From: Methanosarcina sp. 2.H.T.1A.6
GTDB taxonomy: Archaea > Halobacteriota > Methanosarcinia > Methanosarcinales > Methanosarcinaceae
Length of the DNA: 64,000 nucleotides
NCBI RefSeq assembly: GCF_000979455.1
Contig: NZ_JJOY01000049.1
Span: forward strand, 186,001-250,000
Direction: 5' to 3'
Position 1 is the first letter of the stretch, and each line of letters starts with the position of its first letter. Positions 6,404 through 43,953 of this stretch are shown here, piece by piece. The notes under the pieces are model-generated. The model did no database searches, was not told the DNA's origin, and was given only the letters and a program-made list of their open reading frames with translations. A program made the translations under genes and the position numbers.

Positions 6404-6868
6404 TTGGAATTGAACAGTTTTAGCCATGGCTATGGTCAGATTACCTACCATCTCGTGTTGGTGCCAAAGTATCGATACAATATATTCTACAATAAGCGAA
6501 TTAAAAAGGATTGCGAGTTGATCCTCAACAACATTTGCAATGAGCAAGGCTACAAGATTCATGCTCTGGAGATTGTAGACGATCACGTTCACTTGTTTGT
6601 GGAATTTCATCCAAGTAACTCTTTGTCAGAAGTAGTTCAATACTTGAAAGGAGGAAGTTCTTACAGGCTTTTCAAGCTTCATCCTGAACTAAAGAAACGA
6701 TATTGGGGTGGAAGTCTATGGTCAAGTGGAAAATTCTATCGATCAGTTGGAAATTTAACAGCTGACACAATTAAACATTATATCAAGGAGTCACAGAAAA
6801 AACCGAAAGCAAAAGTCAAGTCCTCTAAATCAGTAAAACTTGGTCAGAGAATTATTGAAGACTTCTGA
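6404..6868 (+). CDS. tnpA: TnpA, Y1 HUH single-strand transposase
   Basis: A 154-residue REP/IS200-type transposase. The HUH metal-binding motif is H61-V-H63 in DDHVHLFVEF, and the nucleophile is Y126 in DTIKHYIKES. The N-terminal GYGQITYHLVLVPKYRY and the central WGGSLWSSGKFYRSVG blocks are typical. The family cuts and joins single-stranded DNA at hairpin-marked ends during replication. No ATG is available upstream in frame. TTG at 6404 is used, with a second TTG at 6410, so translation may be weak by design. The reading frame is intact and the element could be active. Confidence 0.92.
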   Translation: MELNSFSHGYGQITYHLVLVPKYRYNIFYNKRIKKDCELILNNICNEQGYKIHALEIVDDHVHLFVEFHPSNSLSEVVQYLKGGSSYRLFKLHPELKKRYWGGSLWSSGKFYRSVGNLTADTIKHYIKESQKKPKAKVKSSKSVKLGQRIIEDF

Positions 6869-21864: not shown

Positions 21865-22066
21865 TGTTTTGACTCAATCCATTTCTGTGTAGTAAAGCCT
21901 TAAAACTCTTGAATTATGAGATTGATGAGAGGGGGTAAAACTGAACTTTTTCTTATTGGGTATAAGGCGAGGTCTTATATAAAATTTACACACAGATATT
22001 GGGGAAAACTGTGTAGTAAATAACAGAATATTAGGTGTAGAGATAAAAATATTTGAAAAAAAGAAA

Positions 22067-22151
22067 CGACGAGAGGGGGACTCGAACCCCCGGGATGCGG
22101 GGCATCACGGGATTAGCAATCCCGCGCCATACCGGGCTTGGCTATCTCGTC
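22067..22151 (-). tRNA. tRNA-Ser (GCT)
   Basis: The minus strand folds as a class II tRNA. The acceptor is GACGAGA / TCTCGTC with discriminator G, and the anticodon loop is TTGCTAA with anticodon GCT. A long variable arm (CCCGTGATGCCCCGCATCC region) and a T loop GTTCGAGTC are present. No CCA is encoded and no intron is seen. A TATA-like box (TTAAATATATG, 22190-22201 on the minus strand) lies about 40 nt upstream. Confidence 0.95.
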
Positions 22152-22302
22152 ATATCGAACTTTAGAAACGCGTTCCCTAAAATGCATTTCATATATTTAA
22201 CCTTTTCCGGAGAAAACTACTTTAAATAAATTGTTCATCCAGAAAAATTACAGTTCTATTATAATACCAAGCTCTTGAAAACTATTAAATTAATGTGCTT
22301 AG

Positions 22303-22617
22303 TGATGAGCACACCGCAGGTTGTTGTACCTCGGAGACTTCAGTAGGCTGAGATCTCTTCTCCACCCCGCGACCCCGCAAGCGACGGTTGCCCACGGTGA
22401 GTCTGCTCCCTTCCGGGCCTCGACCGGTTTCCGCGGTTAGGGCACGAGAACCTGTTTTCCAGCAAGTCCGCATACCTGCACTATCCAAGCAGGACGGGGT
22501 TTCTCAGTTGAAATCACAGGCTGAAATCTCTTTGACGCATCTTCCTTTGGCTTCGTCCCCCGCATATCGGCGATTTCGGGTTATAGGTAACGCCGGGCTA
22601 CCCGGACTAGCTCATCA
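22303..22617 (-). ncRNA. Signal recognition particle 7S RNA
   Basis: The minus strand contains the universal SRP helix 8 signature (GGCCCGGAAGGGAGCAGACT, about 22400-22420) and the partner GGGCAACC. The 5' end TGATGAGC (22617-22610) pairs with the 3' end GCTCATCA (22310-22303), giving archaeal helix 1 and a length of about 315 nt. The RNA scaffolds SRP19 and SRP54 for membrane targeting. A TATA box (GTTTTATAAG, 22639-22648 on the minus strand) is centred 26 nt upstream of the inferred 5' end. Open frames within it are artefacts. Confidence 0.95.
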
Positions 22618-23049: not shown

Positions 23050-24675
23050 ATGAGATATGGAGTTGCAATTGACCTGGGGACAAGTGGGTATCGGGCTCAG
23101 AAGATTGACCTTGATACTCAGGAAATTAAAAGGACAGTAATAACATTGAGAAATCCCCTTCCCGGAGCGAATGTGATGGATCACATGGACTTCGCAATTC
23201 ACTATGGTCAGGATCTTGCTCACGGGCTTTCCGTAAATGCGGTAAAGACCCTGCTCCAGACCCTTGATGTGCAAAGCGGAGAACTTGACAGACTTTCAAT
23301 CTGCGGAAACCCTATTCAGTTATCCATTTTTCAGGGAATCAGCATTGAAGATCTGGCTTATGCAGGGGAACGGAAGAAAAAAAAGTACAATATACAGGAA
23401 CAGAACAGGAATGCGAGAATAATATCCAGCAGCGAAATTTCGGGGCTTGAGGAATTTAACTGTGAAGTTGTAGTCCCTCCTGCAATAAAACATGAAGTTG
23501 GAGCCGATGCCCTTGCCCTTATTATTAAATCTGGCATGCTTAACAGCGATGAGATTTCGATTGCAACGGATTACGGGACAAATGCCGAGATGGCGCTCAA
23601 AGTAAAAGATATTATTTATACAGGCTCGGCAGCTGCAGGCCCGGCTCTTGAAGGGCAGCAGATAAAGCATGGGACCCTTGCTTCTCCCTTTGCAATTTCG
23701 GATTTTGAATTCGAGGACGGAGCATTGAGGAATTATGTATTAAACGAAGAGATGAAACCTTATCCCGGAGATCTTGTAGACCCCAAAACCGGAGAAATTC
23801 TTGAAGAGGGGCAGGTCAAAGCAAGAGGAATTACGGGTACAGGAGTGATTGCCCTTATAGAAAAAGCCATGGGCCACGGCCTGGTTGAACTCCCAAAAAT
23901 CAAGACTTCGGACGAACTAATTCACCTGCAGAACAAAATCACTTTCTCGGAAAAAGACCTCAAAGAAGCCGGAAAAGCCATTGGTGCAATCAGGGCGGGG
24001 CACATTACTCTCTGTGCGGTTTCAGGTATCGAACTGACAGATATTGATACCGCGTATATGGCAGGTGCTGCCGGCACATATATGGATGCGGAAAAAGCCC
24101 AGAAAATTGGCTTGATCCCTTTCTCTACGGGAAAAATTACCCAGCTCGGGAACACCTCTCTTGCTGTTGCAAGGGAAATCCTGCTTTCGGAAGAAAGGCT
24201 GTGGGAACTTCAGGATATTGCAAGCCAGATTATAGGCACTCACACAATGTTTGCGACTGCTCCGGAGTTCCGGGATGCCTATGTCCTTGAACTTGCGTAC
24301 TGGGAAGAGGGAATGCCCTTTAAGATGTTTAAGAAATTCCTTAAAAAGAAAGGGCTTCCGTCACTTGATGAGCCCATAGATCACCCTGTGGTAGATAAGC
24401 GCGTGGAAAGAGATATTCCTGTACTTGGTGAAGAAGGTCTGTATGTGCTCGAAAGGGTCGGGACCTATATGACAATGGTTGTTGACTGTCCCGAGTGCAG
24501 GCAGTGCATAAAAGTCTGCCCCAACGACGCCATTACAATTGACGAGGAAAACAGGGTTATGATAAGTACCGACCTCTGCGAAGGTTCACACTGCCAGAAA
24601 TGTATAAGAGCCTGCCCACCTGACAAATTTAACTGGGAGAATTTAGAGGTCTTCAAACCACAGAAACAGGAGTAA
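23050..24675 (+). CDS. ramA: RamA-type corrinoid protein reductive activase
   Basis: A 541-residue protein matching the length of Methanosarcina RamA. An ASKHA-type ATPase fold occupies about residues 1-430 (AIDLGTSGYRAQ at 6-17, ATDYGTNAEMAL near 178-189, AYMAGAAGTYMD near 336-347). Two ferredoxin-type 4Fe-4S motifs follow: CPECRQCIKVCP and CEGSHCQKCIRACP. The enzyme uses ATP to reduce the Co(II) corrinoid of methylamine methyltransferases to Co(I). A GGGGAG ribosome binding site precedes the ATG. No methyltransferase genes lie in the window, so it is either unlinked or a paralog serving another corrinoid protein. Confidence 0.88.
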   Translation: MRYGVAIDLGTSGYRAQKIDLDTQEIKRTVITLRNPLPGANVMDHMDFAIHYGQDLAHGLSVNAVKTLLQTLDVQSGELDRLSICGNPIQLSIFQGISIEDLAYAGERKKKKYNIQEQNRNARIISSSEISGLEEFNCEVVVPPAIKHEVGADALALIIKSGMLNSDEISIATDYGTNAEMALKVKDIIYTGSAAAGPALEGQQIKHGTLASPFAISDFEFEDGALRNYVLNEEMKPYPGDLVDPKTGEILEEGQVKARGITGTGVIALIEKAMGHGLVELPKIKTSDELIHLQNKITFSEKDLKEAGKAIGAIRAGHITLCAVSGIELTDIDTAYMAGAAGTYMDAEKAQKIGLIPFSTGKITQLGNTSLAVAREILLSEERLWELQDIASQIIGTHTMFATAPEFRDAYVLELAYWEEGMPFKMFKKFLKKKGLPSLDEPIDHPVVDKRVERDIPVLGEEGLYVLERVGTYMTMVVDCPECRQCIKVCPNDAITIDEENRVMISTDLCEGSHCQKCIRACPPDKFNWENLEVFKPQKQE

Positions 24676-24954
24676 GGTTGATCTGACTGTCAATGGATCA
24701 GCACTCAGGTACTTATAACGTCGAAAAATGTTATTATACAATTCACACTCAATAATTAATAAGAGTGATGACGATGGGCGAATCCATCTTAATGTATTTA
24801 AAAGTGCCGTTCAGTAGTACTCTGGTCTTTATGCGTGGCTTAGCAGAATTGACACGAATATTAAGGGATAAACAGGTAAACAAATAAGAACACAATCTGA
24901 AATAAATACTATTTGAACCTCAAAAGGGCAGAATAAGCAAGAGAAATAAGAGAA

Positions 24955-25020
24955 CCCGTTTGTGAAAAGAACTCGTTTGTGAAAATAACCCTTTTGTGAA
25001 AATAACCTGTTTGTGAATTC
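24955..25020. repeat. 17-bp tandem repeat, four copies
   Basis: The unit approximates CCCGTTTGTGAAAATAA; the four copies differ at one to three positions each. Confidence 0.75.
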
Positions 25021-25123
25021 AATTTAAAAGTGAGGGACAACTTTTTAACAAAAAAGGAGTTTTGGGCGGTTGTGTACACAATGAACACAAATTATATAAA
25101 TAACCTCATCATAACGAATTATT

Positions 25124-25216
25124 GAGGCATCTAATCCACTTTCACACCATAAATCATCTACCACATCTAGCCCAATTAGATTTTTAAGTTACGCAACGCA
25201 GTTTTTTAGATGCCTC
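25124..25216 (+). ncRNA. Candidate small RNA, copy 1 (closed by an 11-bp stem)
   Basis: The 93-nt element begins GAGGCATCTAA (25124-25134) and ends with its exact complement TTAGATGCCTC (25206-25216). An internal hairpin ATCTA...TAGAT lies in the middle. A TATA box TATAAATAA at 25095-25103 is centred about 25 nt before the 5' end of the stem, the normal archaeal promoter spacing. Both the box and the whole element recur at 25802-25923. The strand is inferred from the TATA box. A mobile element is the alternative reading, but the shared upstream promoter argues for a duplicated gene. Confidence 0.5.
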
Positions 25217-25829
25217 ATTACCCAAATAACGCGAAGCTAACTGGGATAGAAAATCATCATATATAACCTTTTATATTCAATGTTTAAAATACTAATCTGA
25301 TTTGCGATCTCATCTAGCAGAATAAGTGTATTTTGTACAGAATATTGTACAGAATAAAGCATTAAAGCTCCTGATAATTCAAAAGCTTTAATATCTCTAC
25401 ACAAAATATTTCTCTTTTTATTTCGGTGCATTCAGGTCAGGGCATCAGGAGTACGACTCATTATTCGTGAATACTGTATCTATTTTCTCTACTATACTCA
25501 TCAGGGTTTAGTTTTTATAATTATATTGGGCTGTAGCTTTATTTTTTGAGGCAAAAAATTCTATATTCTAAAGCTGAATGAATATAAATCCTGACATGTA
25601 GAGATTTTGATCGAAAATAGATCGGAAATAAGTCCGATAGAAAGAATATCTACGCTTTACCTATACTTTGAATGATACCTGTAAAGGCTGAGATTTTTAG
25701 TGATATGCCGTCTTGCTGAAAAATGTGGGAAAGATGCTGAAAAGGGCGAATGGGAGAATGAATTATTTAGGAAGAGTCAGGGGTAAAACTAGCACAAATT
25801 TTATAAATAACCTCTACATAGGAGTTAAT

Positions 25830-25923
25830 GAGGCATCTAATCCACTTTCACACCGTAAATCATCTACCACATCTAGCCCAAATAGATTTTTAAGTTACGC
25901 AACGCCTATTTTTTAGATGCCTC
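25830..25923 (+). ncRNA. Candidate small RNA, copy 2
   Basis: About 94 nt and over 90 percent identical to copy 1, with the same 11-bp closing stem (25830-25840 and 25913-25923) and internal hairpin. Its TATA box at 25802-25810 starts 28 nt before the stem (29 nt in copy 1). The flanks outside the promoter and stem are much less similar, which shows the conserved unit is promoter plus transcript. Confidence 0.5.
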
Positions 25924-26489
25924 AATCACCCAATTTGGATGAAACTTTTGATAATGCCTTCTATTAATAATAGAGTTTCTCAGATATAAATATTTATATT
26001 TTACTTGATCTATATTTATGCAGGGTATTCTGGAGTATTGAAGGCTAATCTCCGTTATTTCAATGGCAGGGTACAGCTGTCAACTGTATCTATTTCGGCA
26101 TGGTGTAACATTTTTCTTTTTCCTCATCAATGCCATATTGTAGTTTTTTCCAGCAGCATTTTTCCAGCAGCATAATAGTCTCAAGTATGTCAGCTATACT
26201 TTGCTCTTAACTCTAAGTATGGGATTCCATAGGGAAGTCCTGCATGTGAAACTTTGAACGGTGTTGGAGATGTAAGAATAATAATTATTCCATGGCGGTA
26301 TAGCATCGGTTGCGATATCATAGATGCCTGCGAATTTATTCGCTGGAGACGTCATTTGTTTGTAGAAGTAGGTGACCTGATAAATACAGATTCCAGAAGG
26401 AAAACACAGACAATAAAACTCAGTACACAAACATGTTCTTTTATAGATGGATAAAAAAGGGAAATAAAAGGAAAAAGGAAAGGAAGAGG

Positions 26490-27845
26490 TCAGAGGGAAT
26501 AAGCTTCACGAAGTTTTACAACGAGCGCTTCGACCTGTTCCACTGCTGTTCCTATATACTTATCAGGGTTTACGAGGTTCTCAATATCTCCTGCACTCAG
26601 GTACCTTGAAACAGAAGGAGTATCCAGAAGTACCTGTTTGAAATGTTTCCCTGTATCATGGGCTTCCATCGCTGCATTCCGGACAAGTTCATGGGCTTCC
26701 TGTCTGCCCACACCTCTTTTTGCAAGTTCTATCATTACAGCTTCACCCATATTCAGGCCTCTTAGCAGTTCCAGGTTCCTGCGGATATTTTCGGGATAGA
26801 ACCTGAGATTCTCAAGCACACTGATCCCAAGTTTAAGAATATGGTCCGTAAGTACACAGGCTTCCGGGAAGACAACTCGTTCACAGGAAGAATTTGTAAG
26901 GTCCCTTTCGTCCCATAGGGTATTATTAAGAAGTTCAGGCTCAACCATTGCTCTTACAATCCGTGCAAGCCCGCAGATCTGCTCGGACTTTATAGGGTTG
27001 CGCTTGTGAGGCATGGTAGATGAACCGACCTGCTTTTTCCCGAAGCTTTCCTCAACCTCGGCGATTTCACTGCGCTGAAGAGTCCTGATCTCTATGCCGA
27101 TCTTGTCCATAGTAGTAACAGTATTTGCCATCCACATAACAAACTCGGCATGCCTGTCCCTCTGGATGATCTGGTTTGATACATCCACAGCCCCGATTCC
27201 TAGGTGCTGCATTGTAAGTTTCTGGATCAGGATTCCGGATTTTCCAAAAGCTGCCTGGGTACCAACAGCTCCGGTCATCTGCCCTACGGTAGCTCTCTGA
27301 GTCAGCTCGTATAAGCGGTCCAGATGCCTTGAAATCTCAGAAGCCCAGATTGCAAAACGGAGCCCATATGTTGTGGGAACGCCGATCTGCCCATGTGTCC
27401 TTCCGCAGCAAACCGTATTCTTGTGGGCTTCTGCCTGGTTTACCAGAACCCTGAGCAGGATTTTGAGTTTATCTTCCAGTATATCGATTGCGTCCTTTAT
27501 CTGGAGAGCTGTTGCTGTGTCAAGGATGTCGTTTGAAGTAGCTCCGAAATGGACCCACTTTCCTGCATCGTCTCTGCACTGCTCAGAAATCGCAACAACA
27601 ACCGCCATCATGTCGTGGTGAATCTCGGCTTCGATTTCGTCAACTCTGTCAGCTTTTACAGAGGTAATGCATTCGGAGATGACCTCAGCCGCTTCTGCGG
27701 GGATAAGTCCCATATCCGCTTCTGCCCGGGCAAGGGCTGCCTCGGTCTGTAAGATCCTAGCAAGTCTGTTTTCCTGACTCCATACGTATTTCATTTCTGC
27801 TGTACCGTACCGGTATTCTATAGGATGAATAGCCACATCAATCAC
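26490..27845 (-). CDS. purB: Adenylosuccinate lyase
   Basis: A 451-residue fumarase/aspartase-superfamily enzyme acting twice in purine synthesis (SAICAR to AICAR, and adenylosuccinate to AMP). The signature loop GSSTMPHKRNPIKSEQ is near residues 276-291, the catalytic His is in CGRTHGQIGVPTTYG (about 142-156) and HFGATSNDILDTAT lies near 97-110. Length and start (MIDVAIHPIEYRYG) match archaeal PurB. It is transcribed alone. Confidence 0.95.
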   Translation of the reverse strand: MIDVAIHPIEYRYGTAEMKYVWSQENRLARILQTEAALARAEADMGLIPAEAAEVISECITSVKADRVDEIEAEIHHDMMAVVVAISEQCRDDAGKWVHFGATSNDILDTATALQIKDAIDILEDKLKILLRVLVNQAEAHKNTVCCGRTHGQIGVPTTYGLRFAIWASEISRHLDRLYELTQRATVGQMTGAVGTQAAFGKSGILIQKLTMQHLGIGAVDVSNQIIQRDRHAEFVMWMANTVTTMDKIGIEIRTLQRSEIAEVEESFGKKQVGSSTMPHKRNPIKSEQICGLARIVRAMVEPELLNNTLWDERDLTNSSCERVVFPEACVLTDHILKLGISVLENLRFYPENIRRNLELLRGLNMGEAVMIELAKRGVGRQEAHELVRNAAMEAHDTGKHFKQVLLDTPSVSRYLSAGDIENLVNPDKYIGTAVEQVEALVVKLREAYSL

Positions 27846-33928: not shown

Positions 33929-35155
33929 TTACTCATGCCTCAAAGCATCTACAGGAGCCAATTTTGCGGCCTTGCTTGCGGGATAAACCCCTGCGGCAAC
34001 GCCCACAACTATAGCAACTATGAGGCCTGCCACAAAAATATAAGGGGAATAAAGGAAGGGAAGGTTAAGGAGGTTTGTGGCGGCATAAGCTCCTCCTACT
34101 CCCACTCCTACTCCAAGGAGACCTCCGAAGAGGCTGATGATAATGGATTCTATGAGAAAGAGCAGAAGAATATCAGTGCTTGAAAAGCCAAGTGCCTTCA
34201 TGATCCCTATTTCCCTGGTGCGCTCAGTAACTGTCACAAGCATGATGTTCATTATTCCTATCGAGCCCACAAGCAGGGAGATAAGAGCTACTGCAACAAG
34301 GAAATTTCTCAGGGTATCAGCAAGCTGGTTTGTTTGCTCAAGGACATCCGCCTGATTGAAAATCCGGTAGGGCTTCGCGTCTTCATCGTTGATATCCCTT
34401 GAAGATACTCCAAAGTTCCGGGCAAGCCGTTTATCCACCTCTTCCGAGACTTCTACCACTTTCTCGATGTTGTCGGACATGGCAAAAAAGGCCGAGAAAT
34501 CATCTTCTTCTAGCATCTGGTTGATGGTTGAAACTGGGATAAAGATGCTCACATCCCTATCGATCCCCCCTCCTACGAAAGATGTAGCAGGGCTTTTAAT
34601 GATGCCTTTCACCTTGAACTTCCGGGTCACCGTCCTGCCCCCTTCAAGACGCAGGGTAATGTCTATAGAACTGCGGGTGGATATGTTCCTATCAAATTTT
34701 TCGTTTGCAACTTTGGACCCGATTGCTGCAGAAAACGCATCCTGGTCACTTATGAAACTGCCTCTTTCCATAATGATATTGGCAGTATCCTCATAGTCTC
34801 CAGTTACTCCCGCGATGTCTATGTTTTTATTCTGGGAGAAGGAGGTTACCACACCAAGCTGCTGTTTTATGGGAGAAACCCCACTGATGCCGGGAGTTTT
34901 TTTGATTATTTGAAGCTCATTGTTGTAAAAAAGGTTTGGTTCCTGGCTGTAAATAATAATAAAATTGGAACCCTGGGCATTTATCTCCTCTTCAAAAAAA
35001 ACATTGAAACTCTCCCCAAGAGAGACGTTCGCCACCACCGCAGCAATCCCTATGATAATGCCAAGGGTAGTCAGGCCTGAGCGGAGCTTTGCACTCGCTA
35101 TGCTCCCAAGAGAGATACCGATAGCTTGCCTTACCTTCAGCATACATCCTCCCAT
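33929..35155 (-). CDS. MacB/FtsX-type ABC permease (cassette 1)
   Basis: A 408-residue permease: one N-terminal helix (LRSGLTTLGIIIGIAAVVANVSL), a large extracytoplasmic MacB_PCD domain (about 50-270) and three C-terminal helices in the FtsX domain. LVGSIGIMNIMLVTVTERTREIGIMKALG is at about 292-320, and the protein ends VYPASKAAKLAPVDALRHE. It is about 55-60 percent identical in appearance to the permease at 40722-41936. In that paralogous set the permease directly follows the S-layer-like gene. Here it stands alone, more than 2 kb from its ATPase and exoprotein. MacB-type systems move lipoproteins or peptides by a mechanotransmission cycle; the substrate is unknown. Confidence 0.88.
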   Translation of the reverse strand: MGGCMLKVRQAIGISLGSIASAKLRSGLTTLGIIIGIAAVVANVSLGESFNVFFEEEINAQGSNFIIIYSQEPNLFYNNELQIIKKTPGISGVSPIKQQLGVVTSFSQNKNIDIAGVTGDYEDTANIIMERGSFISDQDAFSAAIGSKVANEKFDRNISTRSSIDITLRLEGGRTVTRKFKVKGIIKSPATSFVGGGIDRDVSIFIPVSTINQMLEEDDFSAFFAMSDNIEKVVEVSEEVDKRLARNFGVSSRDINDEDAKPYRIFNQADVLEQTNQLADTLRNFLVAVALISLLVGSIGIMNIMLVTVTERTREIGIMKALGFSSTDILLLFLIESIIISLFGGLLGVGVGVGGAYAATNLLNLPFLYSPYIFVAGLIVAIVVGVAAGVYPASKAAKLAPVDALRHE

Positions 35156-35271
35156 TTTAGAGTTCCGGGCTGCTTAAGCTCTGAATCCTATTTTCGACAG
35201 GTATATAGGGAGATTAAGGGTCTTCAGCCCTCAGGCAGTCCATTGAGGATTAATTTCCACAAAACCCAGCA

Positions 35272-35373
35272 GATATTAATGTACAATATTTCCCCGTAAA
35301 TGTTAATGTACAATATATCCCCGTAAATATCAATGTACAATATTCCCTTGTAAATATTAATGTACAAATATAT
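35272..35373. repeat. 27-bp iterated element, about four copies
   Basis: Units at 35272-35298, 35299-35325, 35326-35352 and 35353-35373 follow AATRTTAATGTACAATATT then CCCCGTA. Each contains the near-palindromic TTAATGTACAATA. They lie 120-220 bp upstream of the cassette 1 permease gene. The shared core TGTACAATAT also occurs once upstream of the cassette 1 ATPase (around 39928-39937). They could be operator sites. Confidence 0.65.
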
Positions 35374-35738
35374 AATAAATCATTGTTGGAAGAAATGGGA
35401 GTTTCGATGGGTATTCTGCTCTAAGGTTCTCATGTAACACAGGCGTTAAAAACAGAACAAACTTCCAAACATTACAAATTAGCACATTTCTTATATATGC
35501 TGATGTTATATGATAGGAAATATAAGCATATGTATGAAATACTGAAAGTTAAAACGAAATAAAAGATAAATAAACATCATTTTGAGAATTTTATAACCAG
35601 TTTCTAAACACTTTAAGCTAGATTTTGAGTGCTGAATGTTATCATTTATACCTCCACCGCCTCTGCTTCATGCCCCATTCAAATCTTGACTGTGCGCTGA
35701 AAGATGCACTATTGTAAACACATGGAGGGGGAAAGATT
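35374..35738. other. Intergenic region between divergent permease and histidine kinase genes
   Basis: No gene is seen. AT-rich, with TATA-like tracts (for example TATATAATAAAT around 35369-35380). The ribosome binding site GGAGGGGG of the kinase lies at 35724-35731. Confidence 0.4.
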
Positions 35739-37076
35739 CTGACAAAAAATACTGACAAATACCCTGAACTTTTTTCAAGCATTCCACAGAGCTCACAGCT
35801 CTCCGCCGTATATAGTGATCTCGAAGAACTGGCAGAACTACACGTTGCCTATTTTAAACAAGGGATTGAAAGGGGAGATCACTGCCTCTGGACCGTCCAG
35901 GATTCGCTGTCAGCCGAAAGAGCAAAAAATGAACTTGAGAAGGCAGGAGTGGATGTCGGGAAATATATCACTTCGTCTCAATTAGAGATTCTGCCAACCG
36001 GCACACTTTCAAAAAGTATTCTCCTGCTTGAGTCTGCAGTAAAAGAACTTCTGGGGGCGGGGAATGATAAAGCTCTTTCCGAAGGGTTTCCTGGATTTAG
36101 AATAAATCTCGATATTAATAGAGCTGAAAGCTCCCTCAAGCCCTGCCTTGAAAGGTTAGAAGAAAGCCTTAAAGAAATTAATCCGGATAAAAGAGGCAAA
36201 TTTACATATCTCTGTACTTTCCCTCTTGATGAATTATCAGGCAGCTCACTTCTTGATCTGGTGGAGGAAAAGGGCGTTCTCGTTAAAAGAAAAGGCAAAT
36301 GGGAATATCTGGTGAATACATGCAACTTAAACGGGCACAAAGAACTTGAAATCACCCTTCTCAAAGCAAAAAATGATGCTGAAGCTACAAACAGGGCAAA
36401 AAACAGTTTCATAATGAATATGAGCCATGAGCTTCGAACTCCTCTCAATTCAGTAATAGGTTTTTCTGACCTTCTGCTGGAAGGAGCTTTCGGGCCCATG
36501 AATACAAAACAAGCAAAGTACGTCAACAATATCCTGATAAGCGGAAAAAGCCTGCTGGAGATTATTAACAACCTGCTTGACATTTCAAGACTTGAAGCCG
36601 GTGAAAAGACCCTCAAGTATGAGGACGTGGATGTTGCCAGTCTCATAGGGGAAGTGAGAATGAGTCTCCTTTCGCCTGCTTCGGTTAAGAAGATCATTGT
36701 TGAACTGAAGATAGACCCTTCTGTGGGAAATGTTCGGGCTGATATTACAAAATTCAGGCAGATCATGTACAACCTGGTCAGCAATGCCATAAAGTTTACT
36801 CCCGCAAAAGGAAAGGTCATCATCAGTGCCTGCAAAAAAGAAGGAGTTCTTGAGGTTAAGGTTTCGGATAATGGAATAGGGATTTCAAAGGAGAGTCATG
36901 AAAAGATATTTATGCCCTTTACACAGGCAGATTCTTCTGCAGCCCGTGGGTACGGTGGAGCTGGTCTCGGATTATATATTGTCAGGAACTTTGTAGATCT
37001 TCATGGCGGGAAGATCTGGATCGACTCAGAGATCGACAAAGGAAGCACGTTTACCTTCACCCTTCCGGCAGAATAG
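35739..37076 (+). CDS. MEDS-domain sensor histidine kinase with CTG start
   Basis: The open frame from CTG 35739 gives 445 residues. A MEDS (DcmR-type sensory) domain occupies about 1-160, with the signature YFKQGIERGDHCLWTVQDS. HisKA carries the phospho-acceptor H in MNMSHELRTPLNSVIGFSDLL (about 226-246), and HATPase_c has N box NLVSNAIKFTP (about 346), DNGIGIS and GYGGAGLGLYIV. The next in-frame standard start, GTG at 35949, would delete half of the MEDS domain. GGAGGGGG at 35724-35731 points to CTG 35739. No transmembrane segment is present, so it is a cytosolic sensor. No response regulator lies beside it. It sits in opposite orientation inside cassette 1. Confidence 0.82.
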   Translation: MTKNTDKYPELFSSIPQSSQLSAVYSDLEELAELHVAYFKQGIERGDHCLWTVQDSLSAERAKNELEKAGVDVGKYITSSQLEILPTGTLSKSILLLESAVKELLGAGNDKALSEGFPGFRINLDINRAESSLKPCLERLEESLKEINPDKRGKFTYLCTFPLDELSGSSLLDLVEEKGVLVKRKGKWEYLVNTCNLNGHKELEITLLKAKNDAEATNRAKNSFIMNMSHELRTPLNSVIGFSDLLLEGAFGPMNTKQAKYVNNILISGKSLLEIINNLLDISRLEAGEKTLKYEDVDVASLIGEVRMSLLSPASVKKIIVELKIDPSVGNVRADITKFRQIMYNLVSNAIKFTPAKGKVIISACKKEGVLEVKVSDNGIGISKESHEKIFMPFTQADSSAARGYGGAGLGLYIVRNFVDLHGGKIWIDSEIDKGSTFTFTLPAE

Positions 37077-37149
37077 GAAAATACATCTCTCCCGGAGAAT
37101 AATACGAAAAAAGCAAACTCTTCCCTTAAAGGAAAAAAATCGAAAAAAA

Positions 37150-37170
37150 CGGGTTCGGTAACTGAACCCG
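37150..37170 (+). terminator. Hairpin downstream of the histidine kinase
   Basis: A perfect 7-bp stem CGGGTTC/GAACCCG with a 7-nt loop. No T run follows, so it may act as a 3' stabiliser or a weak terminator. Confidence 0.45.
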
Positions 37171-37492
37171 AATATTGAACTTAGAATACAAGTTACTTAA
37201 AAAGCGAATTGAAATTAAATAATTCTGCAAAAATGAGCTGGGTCCAGCGGAAGACACCTGTCATAAAAAATTGATCGAAGCTGGTGCAGGGATGCACTGG
37301 GGGTTTCCGCAATAACCTCCCTTACGAGCCAGGGGTTGTAAAGGCAGTGACCAATCTGGCACTGCCTATACTTCCGATGGGTCAAGAAAGACATATTTGA
37401 ACTTCTATATTCTTATTGCTTCTAAAATATCCGATTTAAGGATTATTCCTAATAGATCCGATTTAAGGATTATTCAGGGATCTCCAGAGCAC
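37171..37492. other. Intergenic region with a 28-bp period duplication
   Basis: No gene. The 20-nt string ATCCGATTTAAGGATTATTC occurs twice, 28 bp apart, near 37429-37476, between the convergent kinase and S-layer-like genes. Confidence 0.45.
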
Positions 37493-38749
37493 TTATTTAT
37501 TTTTCTGCTGCTTTTTTCTGTAAATCAGTACGCTGATCGCGATAAGGGCGACAAGCAGGATGCCGCCTACAATCATACCTGAACTTCCTCCCTGATTTTC
37601 CTCAACTTGCTGAATACGAAGATTGCTTACCAGATTTTCGTGTTTATTTATACCGTTGCCGTAAATTGCAGAAAGGCTAAGATTTATCGGTTCAGAGTTT
37701 TCTCCTACGTTTTTCGAAGATGGATCTGCTATAGCATCAAACTCTATTGTGAAAAGCTCATCAGCATCCATGGGGCCGATGAAATATTCGGCAGGGTAAA
37801 ATTTCACCCCTTCAGCTTCAGGTTTGATGCTCACGGAATTAAACTCATTAGGGTGGTTATTTGCCACATCAAACTCGAGGGCAGCTTCGCCGTTTACCAG
37901 TTTGAGGGGCTTTGAAGGAATCACCTTTACATTCGAAGAATCAACTTCAAGCGGAATGTTCTTCCGGCTATTGTAGTCAAAAGAGTTGCCTTCTATTGCA
38001 AGTTCAAGGTTGTGAGTTCCCTCACCTGCATCTTCAGAAACCATAACGTTAAATGTCAGTTTGATACTATCCCCTGGACCAAGAAGCCCCATCTCTCCGT
38101 AGGGAGCCTCAAGAACAACTATTCCCTCAGATAGCGGTCTCAAAACTGCGGCCTGGATTCTCGCATTGGTATCATAGTCTTTTCCATCAATAGTGACGGT
38201 AGGAGTTGTTGCGGTATTGCTGAGGGTCACTGTAACAGTGCCCCTGTCTCCAGGCATGAAAGCTTCAGGGTCAGAGATAACCTCTTTGAGTTCCAGAGTA
38301 CCTTTGCTGTCAAAGGTTTCAGTCCCTATCCTTATATCAAAAGTTTTCTCACTCCAGGGGCTGGTTTTATCGATCCTTGTACGGATGTCAATTGACCGGA
38401 TTCCCTTCTGAGCATTCTTGTCCACGAAAAGGTGAAACTCTTTGGATGCAAATTTGTTAGGGGCAAGAGCCCCTATATTCTGTACTGCGTTTGCCTGGGA
38501 ATCAAGGGAAAAGGGATATTCGGGGACTATTTCAATATCAACATTTTCTGCCCTGTCTCTACCTACGTTTTCTACCTGAACTGTTAGGTCAAGATACTCC
38601 CCTATTTTAGCAGGGTAAGGGTTTGTTTCAACTATTGTAACTTTCAGGTTTGCACTTGCAGTCGCAGCAGAAGCAGGTGCTGCAAAAATAAATGAAACTA
38701 AAAGTAGAAATATAACAACAAAAGTAATTGGGTTTTTCAGTCCTGTCAT
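37493..38749 (-). CDS. COG1361 S-layer-like exoprotein with CARDB-type repeats (cassette 1)
   Basis: A 418-residue membrane-anchored surface protein. A signal peptide (FVVIFLLLVSFIFAAPASAA, residues 9-28) is followed by three immunoglobulin-like/CARDB-type domains. These begin LKVTIVETNPYPAKIGEYLDLTVQVENVG, VFM/AFMPGDRGTVTVTLSNTATTPTVTIDGKDY and VIPSKPLKLVNGEAALEFDVANNHPNE. A C-terminal helix (MIVGGILLVALIAISVLIY) with a basic KKQQKNK stop follows. It resembles the paralog at 41972-43228 over its full length. COG1361 proteins often stand beside MacB-like ABC genes in Methanosarcina and may be the extracytoplasmic adaptor. Confidence 0.85.
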   Translation of the reverse strand: MTGLKNPITFVVIFLLLVSFIFAAPASAATASANLKVTIVETNPYPAKIGEYLDLTVQVENVGRDRAENVDIEIVPEYPFSLDSQANAVQNIGALAPNKFASKEFHLFVDKNAQKGIRSIDIRTRIDKTSPWSEKTFDIRIGTETFDSKGTLELKEVISDPEAFMPGDRGTVTVTLSNTATTPTVTIDGKDYDTNARIQAAVLRPLSEGIVVLEAPYGEMGLLGPGDSIKLTFNVMVSEDAGEGTHNLELAIEGNSFDYNSRKNIPLEVDSSNVKVIPSKPLKLVNGEAALEFDVANNHPNEFNSVSIKPEAEGVKFYPAEYFIGPMDADELFTIEFDAIADPSSKNVGENSEPINLSLSAIYGNGINKHENLVSNLRIQQVEENQGGSSGMIVGGILLVALIAISVLIYRKKQQKNK

Positions 38750-38811
38750 TTTAACTCATCCTGATTGACTAAATTTGGAAACTTAATTATTAGGTGTAGG
38801 CTGGGTTACTC

Positions 38812-38965
38812 TGGATTGTTCTGATTTCCTTGGTTATTCTGAGCATTGGATTATTCTGAGTATTGGATTATTCTGAGTATTGGATTATTCTGAGCATTGG
38901 ATTATTCTGATTTCCTTGGTTATTCTGAGTATCATATTATTCTGAGTATTATATTATTCTGAGTA
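38812..38965. repeat. Degenerate 17-20-bp tandem repeats
   Basis: Direct copies of a unit like GGATTATTCTGAGTATT, six or more, in the gap between the cassette 1 ATPase and S-layer-like genes. The equivalent gap in cassette 2 is only 20 bp, so the array is an expansion inside an operon. Confidence 0.7.
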
Positions 38966-38991
38966 CAATGAATTTTCCGAATTATTCTAGC

Positions 38992-39900
38992 TTATTCCGA
39001 ATTTCTCTGGATTATTCCGTCTTTTACGAGCACTACCCTGTCAGCATACTTCGCAATATCTGGATCATGCGTAATCATCACGATAGTCCTGCCATCTTCA
39101 TTCAGTTTGGTAAACATGCTGAGGATTTCGCAGCCTGTTTTAGAGTCCAGGTTTCCTGTAGGCTCATCCGCAAGGAGGATTGCAGGATCATTGATAAGAG
39201 CTCTGGCAATAGCTACCCTTTGCGATTGCCCTCCCGAAAGTTCACCTGGTTTGTGGTGCATACGGTCTTCAAGCCCTACCATTTTTAAAAGGTCTTTTGC
39301 CCTTTTGCGCGTATCCACACCTTCTCTTGTGTTAGCGTAGGTGGGCAGTTCAACATTTTCAAGAGCTGTAAGCCTTGGAATTAGGTTGAATGTCTGGAAT
39401 ACAAAGCCTATCTCAAGCCCCCGAAGCTTTGCAATTTCCCTATCAGATAGTGTATTGATATCAAGGCCTTTAATTATGATCTTCCCTTCTGTAGGTCTGT
39501 CAAGAAAACCTATGAGGTTCATAAGTGTACTTTTTCCTGATCCTGAAGGGCCCATTATAGCAAGAAATTCTCCTTCCCGTACTGTTAGATTGATGTCGCG
39601 AAGAATAGGAACTTCCATATCTCCCAGGGTATAACTCTTTTTAACATTGATGATTTCTATTACCGGGGCTCCTTTAAGCAGATTTTCTCCTTCGGTATCG
39701 TTTGCCGGGCGACTGGAACGGGGTAATTCACACTTAAATTGCTCTTCATCTGAAGTTTCATCCGAGGCAAAAAGGCTTTCTTCCGGAGATATCTTTTCTT
39801 CAGTTTCCCTACTTCTACCTGCTCCCGGGTTCGAATTTCCGGGAGGAGATACTTCGTGATCGAGTATTTTGGTCTTCATGTCCACTTCTTCACTGTTCAC
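38992..39900 (-). CDS. MacB/LolD-type ABC ATPase (cassette 1)
   Basis: A 302-residue ATPase. An ~80-residue charged N-terminal extension precedes a LolD/MacB-type domain: Walker A GPSGSGKST, Q-loop FVFQTFNLIPRL, signature LSGGQSQRV, Walker B ILLADEPTGNLDSKTG and H-loop ITHDPDIAKYAD. The paralog at 43249-43953 lacks the extension. The start is GTG at 39900, or ATG at 39879. It is the upstream gene of the ATPase/exoprotein pair of cassette 1, and TGTACAATAT lies about 30 bp upstream. Confidence 0.9.
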   Translation of the reverse strand: MNSEEVDMKTKILDHEVSPPGNSNPGAGRSRETEEKISPEESLFASDETSDEEQFKCELPRSSRPANDTEGENLLKGAPVIEIINVKKSYTLGDMEVPILRDINLTVREGEFLAIMGPSGSGKSTLMNLIGFLDRPTEGKIIIKGLDINTLSDREIAKLRGLEIGFVFQTFNLIPRLTALENVELPTYANTREGVDTRKRAKDLLKMVGLEDRMHHKPGELSGGQSQRVAIARALINDPAILLADEPTGNLDSKTGCEILSMFTKLNEDGRTIVMITHDPDIAKYADRVVLVKDGIIQRNSE

Positions 39901-40011
39901 ACTTTAAATATATTATTCTACTGAGTGCTGTACAATATCAACATTTTCCTTGTTTTAAGCTTTAAACGTTTGTTATCCATCTCATTTTATAATATCAAAT
40001 CTGCAAAATAA

Positions 40012-40497
40012 TTATTTTTCCCGATTCAGATTTTCAAGTTTTTCGATTACTTCTTCAAGTATGGTGTCAAGCTTGAGCATATCTCTGTGGTATCGTTTAA
40101 GGATTTCTATTTTTTCCTTCTGTGCCTCGCTGAGGTCTTCATTCTGATAATGCTCGATCATACGAGGGATTTCAATAGTTGCAGGTTGAATTTCACTTGC
40201 CTGTGCTCTTATCAGCTGTCCGATAGCAACCCTTAAGATGTCCTTGTTTGCCCTTACATAGACTTTCCTTGTGCCGGGCTTTGTCCCTCTTACAATAAAA
40301 CCCGAAGGCTCAAGCTGACGGATCTTGTTGCTTACCGAAGCCAGGGAATAGCCGGTCTCCTCAGCAAGCTCTTTCATTGAAACCTCTCCCGGTTCGATAA
40401 AAAGCTTGGCAACTATGGTTGCAGTGAGACTGTCCATTCCGTAGGCTTTGCCAACCCTTTGATAATAATTAATAAACTCCCTGTCAATCTGATCCAT
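40012..40497 (-). CDS. GbsR/MarR-like winged-helix regulator
   Basis: About 161 residues (ATG at 40497; another ATG at 40503). A winged helix is at residues 15-90 (SLTATIVAKLFIEPGEVSMKELAEETGYSLASVSNKIRQLEPSGFI), followed by a helical C-terminal dimerisation part (about 100-160). GbsR-like regulators respond to osmolytes or envelope signals. It lies between the two ABC/S-layer-like cassettes, on the same strand, about 110 bp upstream of the cassette 1 ATPase gene, so it is the natural candidate for their control. Confidence 0.8.
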   Translation of the reverse strand: MDQIDREFINYYQRVGKAYGMDSLTATIVAKLFIEPGEVSMKELAEETGYSLASVSNKIRQLEPSGFIVRGTKPGTRKVYVRANKDILRVAIGQLIRAQASEIQPATIEIPRMIEHYQNEDLSEAQKEKIEILKRYHRDMLKLDTILEEVIEKLENLNREK

Positions 40498-40721
40498 AAT
40501 CATTCATTCAATCATTTATTACTTTTAGTATTTAGTAAAAATAATGTAAATAGAAGTTACTTAAAAGTTATTCTTGCCCTATCAATTTTTAGTCGGTCTG
40601 GCTAAAAAAGAATCACTGGAAAAAGAAACGCTGGAAAAGAAACGCTGGAAAAAAAAGCTGAAGAATGCTGAAAAAAGAAAATATTGACAAGATAAGGGCC
40701 ATCTTCAAACTTGAAAGACCC

Positions 40722-41936
40722 TTACTCATACCTTAAGGCATCCACAGGATTCATGCTTGCAGCCTTTCTTGCGGGATACAGCCCTGCACCTACACCTACA
40801 AGGACCGAAACCAGAATCCCGATTTCGATTAGCTTGAATGGAAAAACCGGTGGAAGTTTAAGGGCATTTTCAAGGATGTAAGCTCCAAACCCGCCTATTG
40901 CAGTTCCCATCAGTCCCCCGAAGACGCTAACCATCACGGACTCCAGCAAAAAAAGGGATTGAATATTGGAGCTGCTGTAACCTACGGACTTCATTATACC
41001 AATTTCTCTTGTACGTTCGGTAACTGTTACGAGCATGATATTCATAATCCCTATCGAACCCACGAACAGTGAGACTAAAGCAAGGACGAGCAGGAAAGAA
41101 CTTAAGGCAGCTCCTAATGCTTCGGTCTCTTCAAGGACATCTACCTGATTGAATATGGTATAAGGCTTTGCATCTTCATCCTCAATATCCCTTTGAGGAA
41201 TTCCGAAGTTCCTGGCAAGCCTTTTATCCACTTCATCCGAAATATTGCGGATATTCTCAGAGCTTTCTGCCATCGCAAAGAAGGCTCCATAGTCCTGTTC
41301 TCCGGTCATCTCATTCATGGTCGAAATAGGGATATAAATTATCATGTCTGTACTGCCGTCTCCACCGACAATAGTTTCTTTTGAATCCTCCAGAACTCCT
41401 TTTACTTTGAAGCTTTTTCTTACAAGCGTACCGTCTTCCTGTCGGAATGCAATATCAACAGTGCTTCTATGCGAGATACTCCTGCCAAATTCCTCTTTTG
41501 CAAGGTCATACCCAAGAACAGCAGAGTAAATGTCCTTATCAGTCAGGAAACTTCCCTCTTCCATTTTAATTCCCTGGATTTCCTGAAAGTCCCCATTTAC
41601 ACCCACAATGCTCACACTTTTAGTATCTGAAAGATAGTTGATCTCTCCTGATATTGTTTTTCTGGGAGAAACTCCCAAAATTCCTGGAGTATTTTCAATT
41701 ATTTCAAGCTCACTTTCATAAAATAGGTTTGGTTGGTCACTATATGCAATTATGAAATTTGAGCCTACAGAGGCGACCTCATTGGTAAAAAACTGATTGA
41801 AGCTGGCACCAAGGGATGCGTTTATGATTACTGCTGCAATGCCTATCACAATTCCGAGCGTTGTGAGTGCAGACCGAAGCTTGGAGCTGCGTATACTTCC
41901 AGAAGCAATATGGGCTGCCTGTACAAATTGTATCAT
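40722..41936 (-). CDS. MacB/FtsX-type ABC permease (cassette 2)
   Basis: A 404-residue permease with the same layout as the protein at 33929-35155: an N-terminal helix (LRSALTTLGIVIGIAAVIINASLG), a MacB_PCD extracytoplasmic domain, FVGSIGIMNIMLVTVTERTREIGIMKSVGYS, and the ending LYPARKAASMNPVDALRYE. It is the last gene of an intact ATPase-exoprotein-permease operon; only 35 bp separate it from the exoprotein gene. Confidence 0.9.
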   Translation of the reverse strand: MIQFVQAAHIASGSIRSSKLRSALTTLGIVIGIAAVIINASLGASFNQFFTNEVASVGSNFIIAYSDQPNLFYESELEIIENTPGILGVSPRKTISGEINYLSDTKSVSIVGVNGDFQEIQGIKMEEGSFLTDKDIYSAVLGYDLAKEEFGRSISHRSTVDIAFRQEDGTLVRKSFKVKGVLEDSKETIVGGDGSTDMIIYIPISTMNEMTGEQDYGAFFAMAESSENIRNISDEVDKRLARNFGIPQRDIEDEDAKPYTIFNQVDVLEETEALGAALSSFLLVLALVSLFVGSIGIMNIMLVTVTERTREIGIMKSVGYSSSNIQSLFLLESVMVSVFGGLMGTAIGGFGAYILENALKLPPVFPFKLIEIGILVSVLVGVGAGLYPARKAASMNPVDALRYE

Positions 41937-41971
41937 ATTTTACCCCCCTAAATATGATATTTAGCCAATCT

Positions 41972-43228
41972 TCATCTGCTTATTGTTTTTTTCTTTCTGT
42001 AGATTAGAAAGGCTGCAGGGATAAAGACTGCAATAAGTCCACCTGCAATTGCAACTGTAGAGTTTGTCTCAGGAGTCCGGGAATCCGTTTCAAGGTTCAG
42101 ATTACCTGCAACATTTTCGTGCCTGTTGATGCCATTGTTGTAGTTTGCAGTTACATTCATGCTTACGGGTCCCGAAGATTTTTTACCGGTATCCGAGGAA
42201 CTGTCTATCATTGCATCAAACTTTATTGTGAAAAGTTCGTCAGGATCCATAGGTCCGATGAAGTATTCGGCAGGGTAAAACTTTACACCTTCAGCTTTAG
42301 GTCTTATGCTGACAGAGTTTAGTTCATTAGGATGGGTATTTGCTACATCAAACTCTACGGTAGTTGTCCCATCCACCATCTGTAGTGGCTTTGAAGGAAT
42401 TACCTTTATATTCGAAGAATCGACTTTAAGCGGAATGTTCTTCTTGCTGTTGTAGTCAAATGAGTTTCCCTCAATTGCAAGTTCAAAATTGTGAATTCCT
42501 TCCCTTGCATCTTCTTCAACCTCTACATTGAAGGTCAATTTGATACTGTCTCCCGGGCCCACAAGTCCCATTTCATAATATGGAGCTTCCGAAACTCTTA
42601 TTCCGTCAGACAGAGGCCTCAAAACCGCAGCTTGGATTCTCGCATTGGTATCATAGTCTTTTCCATCAATGGTAACTGTAGGCGTAGTTGCTGTATTCTT
42701 AAGAGTTACTGTAACAGTTCCCCTATCTCCAGGCATAAAGACTTCAGGAGACGAAACGATTTCTGCAAGCTCAACGGTACCTTTGCTGGTAAAGGCTTCA
42801 GTACCTATCCTGATATCAAAACTTTTCTCACTCCATGGATTGTCCTTATCAGCCCTGGAGTGAATCTCAATAGGACGAACGCCTTTCTGGGCTTTTTTAT
42901 CAACATACAGATAGAATTCCTTTGTAGCGGTTCTGCCAGGATTGAGAGCTCCAATGTTCTGCACAGTGTTTACATTGGAATCCAGAGAGAAAGGATACTC
43001 AGGGATTATTTTTATGTCAATATCATTGGCTTTGTTCTCTCCGATGTTTTCCACCTGTATGGTCAGGGTCAGGTATTCCCCTATCTTTGCAGGATAAGGA
43101 TTTGTTTCGATAATCGTTACTTTCAGGCTCGGACTACCTACAGCCGCTGAAGCCGGAGACACAAAAACAGAGGCTATCAGAAGTAAAGAAAAAAAAGTTG
43201 CGATGAAATGCTCTTTAATCAATTCCAT
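41972..43228 (-). CDS. COG1361 S-layer-like exoprotein (cassette 2)
   Basis: A 418-residue paralog of the protein at 37493-38749. It has a signal peptide (FIATFFSLLLIASVFVSPASAA, about 8-29), the same three beta-sandwich regions with MPGDRGTVTVTLKNTATTPT, and a C-terminal helix followed by KKKTISR. The middle gene of the intact operon, it starts 20 bp after the ATPase stop. Its anchored, extracytoplasmic position suits contact with the MacB_PCD domain of the permease; this is inference. Confidence 0.86.
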   Translation of the reverse strand: MELIKEHFIATFFSLLLIASVFVSPASAAVGSPSLKVTIIETNPYPAKIGEYLTLTIQVENIGENKANDIDIKIIPEYPFSLDSNVNTVQNIGALNPGRTATKEFYLYVDKKAQKGVRPIEIHSRADKDNPWSEKSFDIRIGTEAFTSKGTVELAEIVSSPEVFMPGDRGTVTVTLKNTATTPTVTIDGKDYDTNARIQAAVLRPLSDGIRVSEAPYYEMGLVGPGDSIKLTFNVEVEEDAREGIHNFELAIEGNSFDYNSKKNIPLKVDSSNIKVIPSKPLQMVDGTTTVEFDVANTHPNELNSVSIRPKAEGVKFYPAEYFIGPMDPDELFTIKFDAMIDSSSDTGKKSSGPVSMNVTANYNNGINRHENVAGNLNLETDSRTPETNSTVAIAGGLIAVFIPAAFLIYRKKKTISR

Positions 43229-43248
43229 GTATTCCCCACCTTAGTTAT

Positions 43249-43953
43249 TTAGTTATATTGAATTACTCCATCTTTTACGAGCACTACCCTGTCAGCATAT
43301 TTTGCGATCTCAGGGTCGTGTGTAACAATAACTACTGTCCTTCCCTCGTTATTCAAATCCATGAATATTCGGAGGATCTCAGAACCTGTTTTTGAGTCCA
43401 GGTTTCCAGTCGGCTCATCAGCAAGGATGAGCGAAGGATCATTGATAAGTGCCCTTGCAATTGAGACCCTCTGAGATTGGCCTCCGGAAAGTTCTCCTGG
43501 CTTGTGGTGCATACGGTCCTGCAGTCCCATAAGTTTCAGGAGTTCCGTTGCACGCTTTCGTGGATCGATGCTCCTCGAATTGGCAAAAGTTGGGAGCAAA
43601 ACATTCTCAAAAGCGGTCAGACGAGGAACAAGGTTGAATGTCTGAAAAACGAAACCTATCTCAAGCCCCCGGAGATGGGCAAGTTCTTCATCTGACATTC
43701 TGTGCAGGTCCCTCCCCCTTATAATCACCTGCCCTTCCGTAGGTCTGTCAAGGCAGCCTATAAGGTTCATTAAAGTACTTTTCCCTGAGCCAGATGGTCC
43801 CATTATAGCCAGGAATTCTCCCTTTTCTATTTTAAGGTTAATACCTGAGAGTACCGGAACTTCCATGTCTCCAAGCACATAACTTTTCCTTACATTGGAA
43901 ACTTCGACAATAGGGTACCTATCCTCAGATAAACTATTCTTATTAATGTTCAC
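43249..43953 (-). CDS. MacB/LolD-type ABC ATPase (cassette 2)
   Basis: A 234-residue ATPase with Walker A GPSGSGKST (about 52-60), Q-loop FVFQTFNLVPRL, signature LSGGQSQRV, Walker B LILADEPTGNLDSKTG and H-loop VTHDPEIAKYAD. It is first in the contiguous operon ATPase-exoprotein-permease. Compared with cassette 1 it lacks the long N-terminal extension. A GGGGAGGGGG-type ribosome binding site lies just ahead of the ATG. Confidence 0.92.
   Translation of the reverse strand: MNINKNSLSEDRYPIVEVSNVRKSYVLGDMEVPVLSGINLKIEKGEFLAIMGPSGSGKSTLMNLIGCLDRPTEGQVIIRGRDLHRMSDEELAHLRGLEIGFVFQTFNLVPRLTAFENVLLPTFANSRSIDPRKRATELLKLMGLQDRMHHKPGELSGGQSQRVSIARALINDPSLILADEPTGNLDSKTGSEILRIFMDLNNEGRTVVIVTHDPEIAKYADRVVLVKDGVIQYN

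Follow-up and report, generated by a model that had tools for sequence, protein, structure and literature searches.

Tandem, near-identical small RNAs (sRNAs) with separate promoters are familiar from PrrF1/PrrF2 and OmrA/OmrB, an arrangement shared by the locus described here, although those pairs are bacterial and Hfq-dependent and differ in sequence and structure. Among methanogens, sRNA162 and sRNA171 of M. mazei are a duplicated pair of homologs, 191 nt long and with conserved promoters, and sRNA162 masks a ribosome binding site by means of a single-stranded region (PMC3510493). Also described are sRNA154 of M. mazei, about 130 nt long, with loops that pair with mRNAs and a leaderless short frame (PMC3177094, PMC11456600, PMC5867862), and nine cold-induced conserved sRNAs of Methanolobus psychrophilus that share a motif upstream of their promoters (PMC5378194).

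Set beside these, the present pair resembles sRNA162/sRNA171 in duplication, in conserved promoters, in archaeal family and in a length of the same order (191 nt there), and the pairing by a single-stranded region there has its counterpart here in a predicted unpaired loop (PMC3510493). It is unlike them in that sRNA162 and sRNA171 lie at MM2441-MM2442 and MM2448-MM2449, have three stem-loops and, according to that paper, are represented by just one copy in M. acetivorans and in M. barkeri, whereas the present pair is a close tandem beside purB, with ramA and purB as neighbors rather than the ArsR-regulator locus, a comparison made by description only (PMC3510493). Unlike the present pair, sRNA154 is a single gene at MM3337-MM3338 with an NrpR operator (PMC3177094, PMC11456600, PMC5867862); here the operator (GGTA-N6-TACC) occurs in none of the 31 upstream stretches, and NrpR control was ruled out because it is missing. 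Compared with the M. psychrophilus sRNAs, likewise by description only, copy A also has an element upstream of its promoter, but unlike the shared motif there, this element is not at other promoters among the sites examined (PMC5378194). Our literature search, the scope of which did not extend to the published M. mazei sRNA tables, found no paper recognizable as being on this pair, and passages of PMC3510493, PMC11456600, PMC5867862, PMC3177094, PMC5378194, PMC5112694 and PMC3960522 do not describe it; the RNA may already be in a published list. The original prediction had recognized no named RNA family, in agreement with our scan of the window against Rfam 15, which at the pair gave nothing at the gathering threshold and nothing credible below it, the best sub-threshold match scoring 19.6 bits against 80. 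The two copies have the look of ordinary regulatory RNAs whose family is unlisted in the public RNA library.

The window, by which we mean the whole 64,000-nt stretch of Methanosarcina sp. 2.H.T.1A.6 DNA analyzed, holds copy A at 25124-25216 and copy B at 25830-25923 (93 and 94 nt) on the same strand, 706 bp apart, with 92% identity across 92 nt and a separate 89% match between their promoters. Two elements of about 93 nt with an exact 11-bp closing stem had been predicted, and both arms were located twice and nowhere else in the window (GAGGCATCTAA at 25124 and 25830; TTAGATGCCTC at 25206 and 25913). Also borne out was the claim that each stem has its own TATA box 28-29 nt before it, TATAAATAA starting at 25095 and 25802, that is 29 and 28 nt before the stem. 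The features of the locus are as follows.

22066-22152, - strand: tRNA-Ser, preceding ramA
22303-22617, - strand: SRP RNA, preceding ramA
23050..24675, + strand: ramA-type corrinoid reductive activase, upstream neighbor (TIGR04270, 891.7 bits, cut-off 500)
25059..25082, + strand: conserved element upstream of copy A, GTTTTGGGCGGTTGTGTACACAAT (91% mean pairwise identity, 7 genomes)
25086..25103, + strand: BRE-like CACAAA and TATA box of copy A, TATATAAATAA (mean pairwise identity 1.0, 7 genomes)
25124..25134, + strand: closing stem 5' arm, copy A (sequence match and 31-copy alignment)
25135..25148, + strand: loop box 1 of copy A, TCCACTTTCACACC, predicted unpaired (nearly invariant over 31 copies)
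25156..25173, + strand: loop box 2 of copy A, ATCTACCACATCTAGCCC (31-copy alignment)
25191..25199, + strand: loop box 3 of copy A, ACGCAACGC (31-copy alignment; conservation less strict)
25206..25216, + strand: closing stem 3' arm, copy A (sequence match and 31-copy alignment)
25259..25276, + strand: AT-rich terminator-like hairpin after copy A, ATATATAACCTTTTATAT (pattern search; probable transcript end nearby)
25793..25810, + strand: BRE-like CACAAA and TATA box of copy B, TATAAATAA (98% mean pairwise identity, 7 genomes)
25830..25840, + strand: closing stem 5' arm, copy B (sequence match and 31-copy alignment)
25841..25912, + strand: loop of copy B, containing boxes 1-3 as in copy A (A/B match and alignment)
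25913..25923, + strand: closing stem 3' arm, copy B (sequence match and 31-copy alignment)
25984..25999, + strand: AT-rich terminator-like hairpin after copy B, ATATAAATATTTATAT, then TTTTA (pattern search)
26490..27845, - strand: purB, adenylosuccinate lyase, convergent downstream neighbor (TIGR00928, 527.6 bits, cut-off 326.2)

Evaluating the fold of the cores, we found energies of -19.7 (A) and -21.7 (B) kcal/mol against dinucleotide-shuffle averages of -7.6 and -7.7 (z of -4.8 and -6.0, none of 500 shuffles reaching either energy). Taken alone, an inverted repeat of 11 bp and such span is only moderately unusual in the window and not very rare (10 with a gap of 55-95 nt, versus 0-5, mean 1.15, in 20 shuffles); the weight of the observation comes from its duplication and its conservation in other genomes. 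Over 31 aligned copies, the closing stem comprises 14 pairs with 93.1% of cells paired and 6 pairs invariant, and it alone is retained in the RNAalifold consensus; its second-from-outside pair (columns 4-106) is unpaired in 14 copies. One U-A pair has changed on both sides to C-G in G030B and reads U-G in all four g22 A copies, a C-G pair has become U-G in G082A, U-G stands at the stem end in G027A and G026B, and a stem-end pair is broken in two copies (A-C in G005A, a break in G002B). Covariation across both helices was weak against shuffled letters (score reached in 61 of 500 shuffles, both-sides-changed pairs in 84 of 500), not clearly exceeding them because the stem barely varies. The internal hairpin that the two copies were thought to share is present in the minimum-energy folds, but only 76.8% of its cells are paired, one of its pairs is unpaired in 12 of the 29 copies with letters there, and RNAalifold drops it, so that it was rejected as a conserved feature. 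What the 31 copies do conserve inside the stem is loop sequence (TAATCCACTTTCACACC, ATCTACCAC and, less strictly, ACGCAACGC), the inner pairing not being conserved.

Both copies have their own promoter within the intergenic region between ramA and purB, as is expected of archaeal trans-acting sRNAs, and among the homologs the TATA box is kept in 30 of 31 and CACAAA in 29 of 31. In a relative, predicted promoters stand about 19-22 nt from the transcript start (PMC5378194), and with that spacing transcription here would begin at or near the first bases of the stem. Across seven g1 genomes the promoters of A and B have mean pairwise identities of 1.00 and 0.98, the cores have 0.93 and 0.96, and the upstream element of A has 0.91; the value falls to 0.43 between the copies and 0.18 downstream. 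This upstream element, GTTTTGGGCGGTTGTGTACACAAT, is a putative regulator site that does not stand before copy B in this genus, and its zero-mismatch matches lie only at the RNA pair (8 genomes), all others having 2-3 mismatches at about the control level. It was rejected as a shared regulon motif, as the two further conserved-looking sites examined appear to lie inside coding sequence. Its TTGTG half stands before 12 of the 15 A copies and before the G066 copy; among B copies it stands before all four of g22, none of the ten of g1 and not that of G030. In g1, therefore, A and B have different promoters. The window also holds imperfect 17-bp tandem units (GTTTGTGAAAATAACCC-like) at 24948-25032, shortly before copy A.

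At the other end, the original prediction of an RNA fully base-closed at both ends was not sustained, as conservation runs past the stem to the AT-rich hairpin in 27 of 31 homologs (A 12/15, B 15/15, G066 0/1), so that the stem probably forms only the 5' portion of a transcript that extends beyond it. The hairpin starts 41-62 nt past the stem in 26 of these 27, with the first regex match at 30 in G003A, and one 50-bp bin beyond the hairpin of copy B conservation has dropped from 0.80 to 0.04. Of the places in the window that match the hairpin pattern, the two best are those exactly behind A and B, and allowing up to 2 mismatches it has 6 matches there versus a mean of 0.85 in shuffles. We read the hairpin as a terminator, a second promoter being the less likely alternative, and the transcript would then probably be about 155-175 nt long; transcription and transcript ends are here deduced from sequence.

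To place the pair among its relatives, we used covariance-model searches, the check proposed with the original prediction, which revealed strong matches (E<1e-13) in 16 of 111 family genomes, 16 of 185 order genomes and, with a second model, 16 of 237 class genomes. The carriers belong to three genera (ten in g1, two in g2, four in g22) and hold 31 copies in total, with two copies in 15 of the 16, among them the genome of the window, and one in G066 (83% complete, in about 220 contigs). The model also matches the elements on the reverse strand, as it does with one of the two copies in the window's own genome; this is a consequence of the inverted repeat, and such matches were left out of the copy count. 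In a DNA search of 59 relatives, the pair was recovered from nine further genomes within the genus and from G030, which belongs to a different genus. Carriers include Methanosarcina sp. DH2 and KYL-1. The distance between the starts of A and B is 418-874 bp in the 14 genomes with both on one contig (778 bp in G082, from model coordinates), and the copies of G030 lie on two contigs. Weak matches in G158 and G175 of another family (E 0.003-0.007 per genome among 185) were dismissed as chance, having neither the stem nor the loop boxes, and those in G004, G070, G053, G108 and G140 likewise. Because 95 of the 111 family genomes are without the RNA, it is dispensable at family scale. A relic persists in G012 as a 44-nt match to B at 82%, by our reading a B-like promoter fused by deletion to the 3' half of B. 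The PurB DNA tree (34 genomes, 15 carriers, G066 left out) requires three presence changes, and fits one gain and two losses (a 17-genome clade and G004), since the g22 carriers and G030 branch outside g1. The genome with the relic is one of the 17 in that clade. As the sole other outgroup is one long branch (G033), confidence is lower in the gain than in the loss.

The pair sits at a conserved place among carriers. It had been claimed that no protein gene lies within 700 bp, yet ramA ends 448 bp before stem A and purB lies 566 bp after stem B, and the order ramA - A - B - purB recurs in 9 of 10 g1 carriers with a full-length ramA match, as well as in all four g22 carriers. The tenth g1 carrier, G005, keeps this order with ramA matched only in pieces; there (L045 3140-3971) the ramA match is broken into short pieces that are less similar, and the TATA box of copy A is lost. 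With neither TATA nor CACAAA, G005A may be dead, and the G005 RNA locus is possibly decaying. In g2 the upstream neighbor of the RNA is the SRP RNA, and neither carrier has a ramA match beside the RNA (G030 fragments; G066), which weakens the link to ramA. Among the 18 g1 non-carriers in which the purB region was examined, ramA adjoins purB in 12 with a gap of roughly 70-470 bp; in seven carriers the ramA-purB gap is 1316-1814 bp. The order of SRP RNA and tRNA seen in the window recurs next to the RNA pair in genomes from two further genera. Elsewhere in the window, two similar sets of genes in tandem, for ABC-transporter ATPases, permeases and membrane-anchored proteins (33929-43953, from ORF translations only) and an ORF resembling, by eye, an IS200/IS605-type TnpA transposase (6404-6868) were observed.

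Comparing the paralogs with one another, we found that A and B cores of g1 are more alike within a genome than between genomes (identity 0.903 versus 0.879, permutation p 5e-5), which suggests gene conversion between A and B in g1. In g22 this signal is missing (0.899 within versus 0.904 between, p 0.92).

We consider it reasonably probable that A and B are tandem paralogous genes for one small trans-acting regulatory RNA of Methanosarcinaceae that base-pairs with mRNAs. Duplication, promoter, stem, loop conservation, synteny and loss pattern are read from the sequences, and beyond these we infer the mRNA base-pairing and the two inputs. Each copy would have a BRE/TATA promoter to itself, with transcription beginning on the stem's 5' arm or no more than a few bases from it and probably stopping about 155-175 nt later near the AT-rich hairpin. 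The closing stem would clamp a loop of about 70 nt, mostly unpaired, whose near-invariant C-rich boxes would pair with ribosome-binding or other regions of mRNAs encoded elsewhere and so alter translation or stability. A promoter-driven RNA with a clamped, unpaired, C-rich loop conserved in its nucleotides fits a base-pairing regulator of the sRNA162 sort (PMC3510493). Two genes would offer two inputs for nearly the same RNA, A with an extra upstream element in this genus and B without, and gene conversion would help hold the RNA parts alike in this genus.

Searching for targets in 5 of the 16 carriers, we found 3-14 sites per genome for the first loop-complement pattern (the elements included) versus 3-8 for the control, and 12-35 versus 6-14 for the second, the latter inflated by a repeat in G025, where matches come mainly from one repeated sequence, and by an array in G000. 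The 26 sites inspected lie mostly inside open reading frames, and duplexes with the start regions of 35 window genes reach -22.5 at best, compared with -24.7 in 300 random 60-mers, so that the two patterns in five carriers, the 26 sites and the 35 gene starts yielded no convincing conserved mRNA target. The G000 array consists of 9-bp units of TAGATGTGG, head to tail on the + strand (L007 about 1500-1552; G000:C6:31121-31172), complementary to loop box 2 in five overlapping 15-base matches; it could be a sponge or chance, and the sites listed in four other carriers contain no array of this type.

That loop nucleotides are conserved without conserved inner pairing, and that no mRNA target was found, would also suit a protein-binding or sponge RNA, whose loop boxes would hold an RNA-binding protein or titrate some other RNA in place of pairing with mRNAs; we regard this as unlikely, no protein partner or known binding motif having been identified and no Rfam family matching at the gathering score. 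Less probable again is a dual-function or small-protein RNA translated from a leaderless frame at the RNA 5' end. Copy B has such a frame with an ATG (21 codons, MRHLIHFHTVNHLPHLAQIDF) and copy A the same frame with TTG; the frame is intact in most copies of this genus, ATG is present in 9 of 10 g1 B copies, and sRNA154 of M. mazei has a leaderless 20-aa frame by Ribo-seq (PMC11456600), the precedent for which we keep this reading at a low probability. Elsewhere, however, the start codon is TTG, TTA, AGG, CTG or GTG, and the frame is shifted in G025B, G007A, G030A, G030B, G066 and G081B. Variable columns by codon position 1/2/3 number 3/2/4 for codons 2-9, counted in all 31 copies, and 7/3/6 for codons 10-20, counted in the 24 that remain when 7 with a shifted or shortened frame are set aside, revealing no third-position excess of the kind left by protein-like selection. 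Frame shifts, start loss and these counts rule out a protein gene as the main reading, and the RNA counts as not protein-coding in the sense used for archaeal trans-acting sRNAs, with a little room left for the leaderless frame. We give only slight credence to a dual-function pair, in which the clamped loop would be combined with a histidine-rich 21-residue peptide, A (TTG) being RNA-only and B (ATG) RNA-plus-peptide, with different promoters and gene conversion.

Comparably slim is the chance that the inverted repeat is an untranscribed protein-binding or recombination site. The near-invariant stem is what a DNA site could show, but the promoter at a fixed distance (TATA 30/31) is as conserved as the repeat, the loop is conserved too, and by our count single-side changes in the core stem have produced U-G on the + strand four separate times and A-C once, so that an RNA from the + strand is weakly favored. 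A duplicated mobile miniature element (MITE) is highly improbable despite the two copies with terminal inverted repeats, since dispersed copies with target duplications, named with the original prediction as the mark of a MITE, are replaced by two copies in the window's own genome, set in one place conserved among carriers, with differing flanks, no target duplication seen and no exact pattern match in viral contigs.

Returning to the trans-acting regulatory RNA that we favor, archaeal sRNAs with a defined family and a traced evolution are few, and this RNA pair has a clear history, with whole-clade loss, a relic and a constant tandem arrangement. Because its carriers include cultivable methanogens, comparing carriers with natural losers could show the role of a duplicated sRNA.
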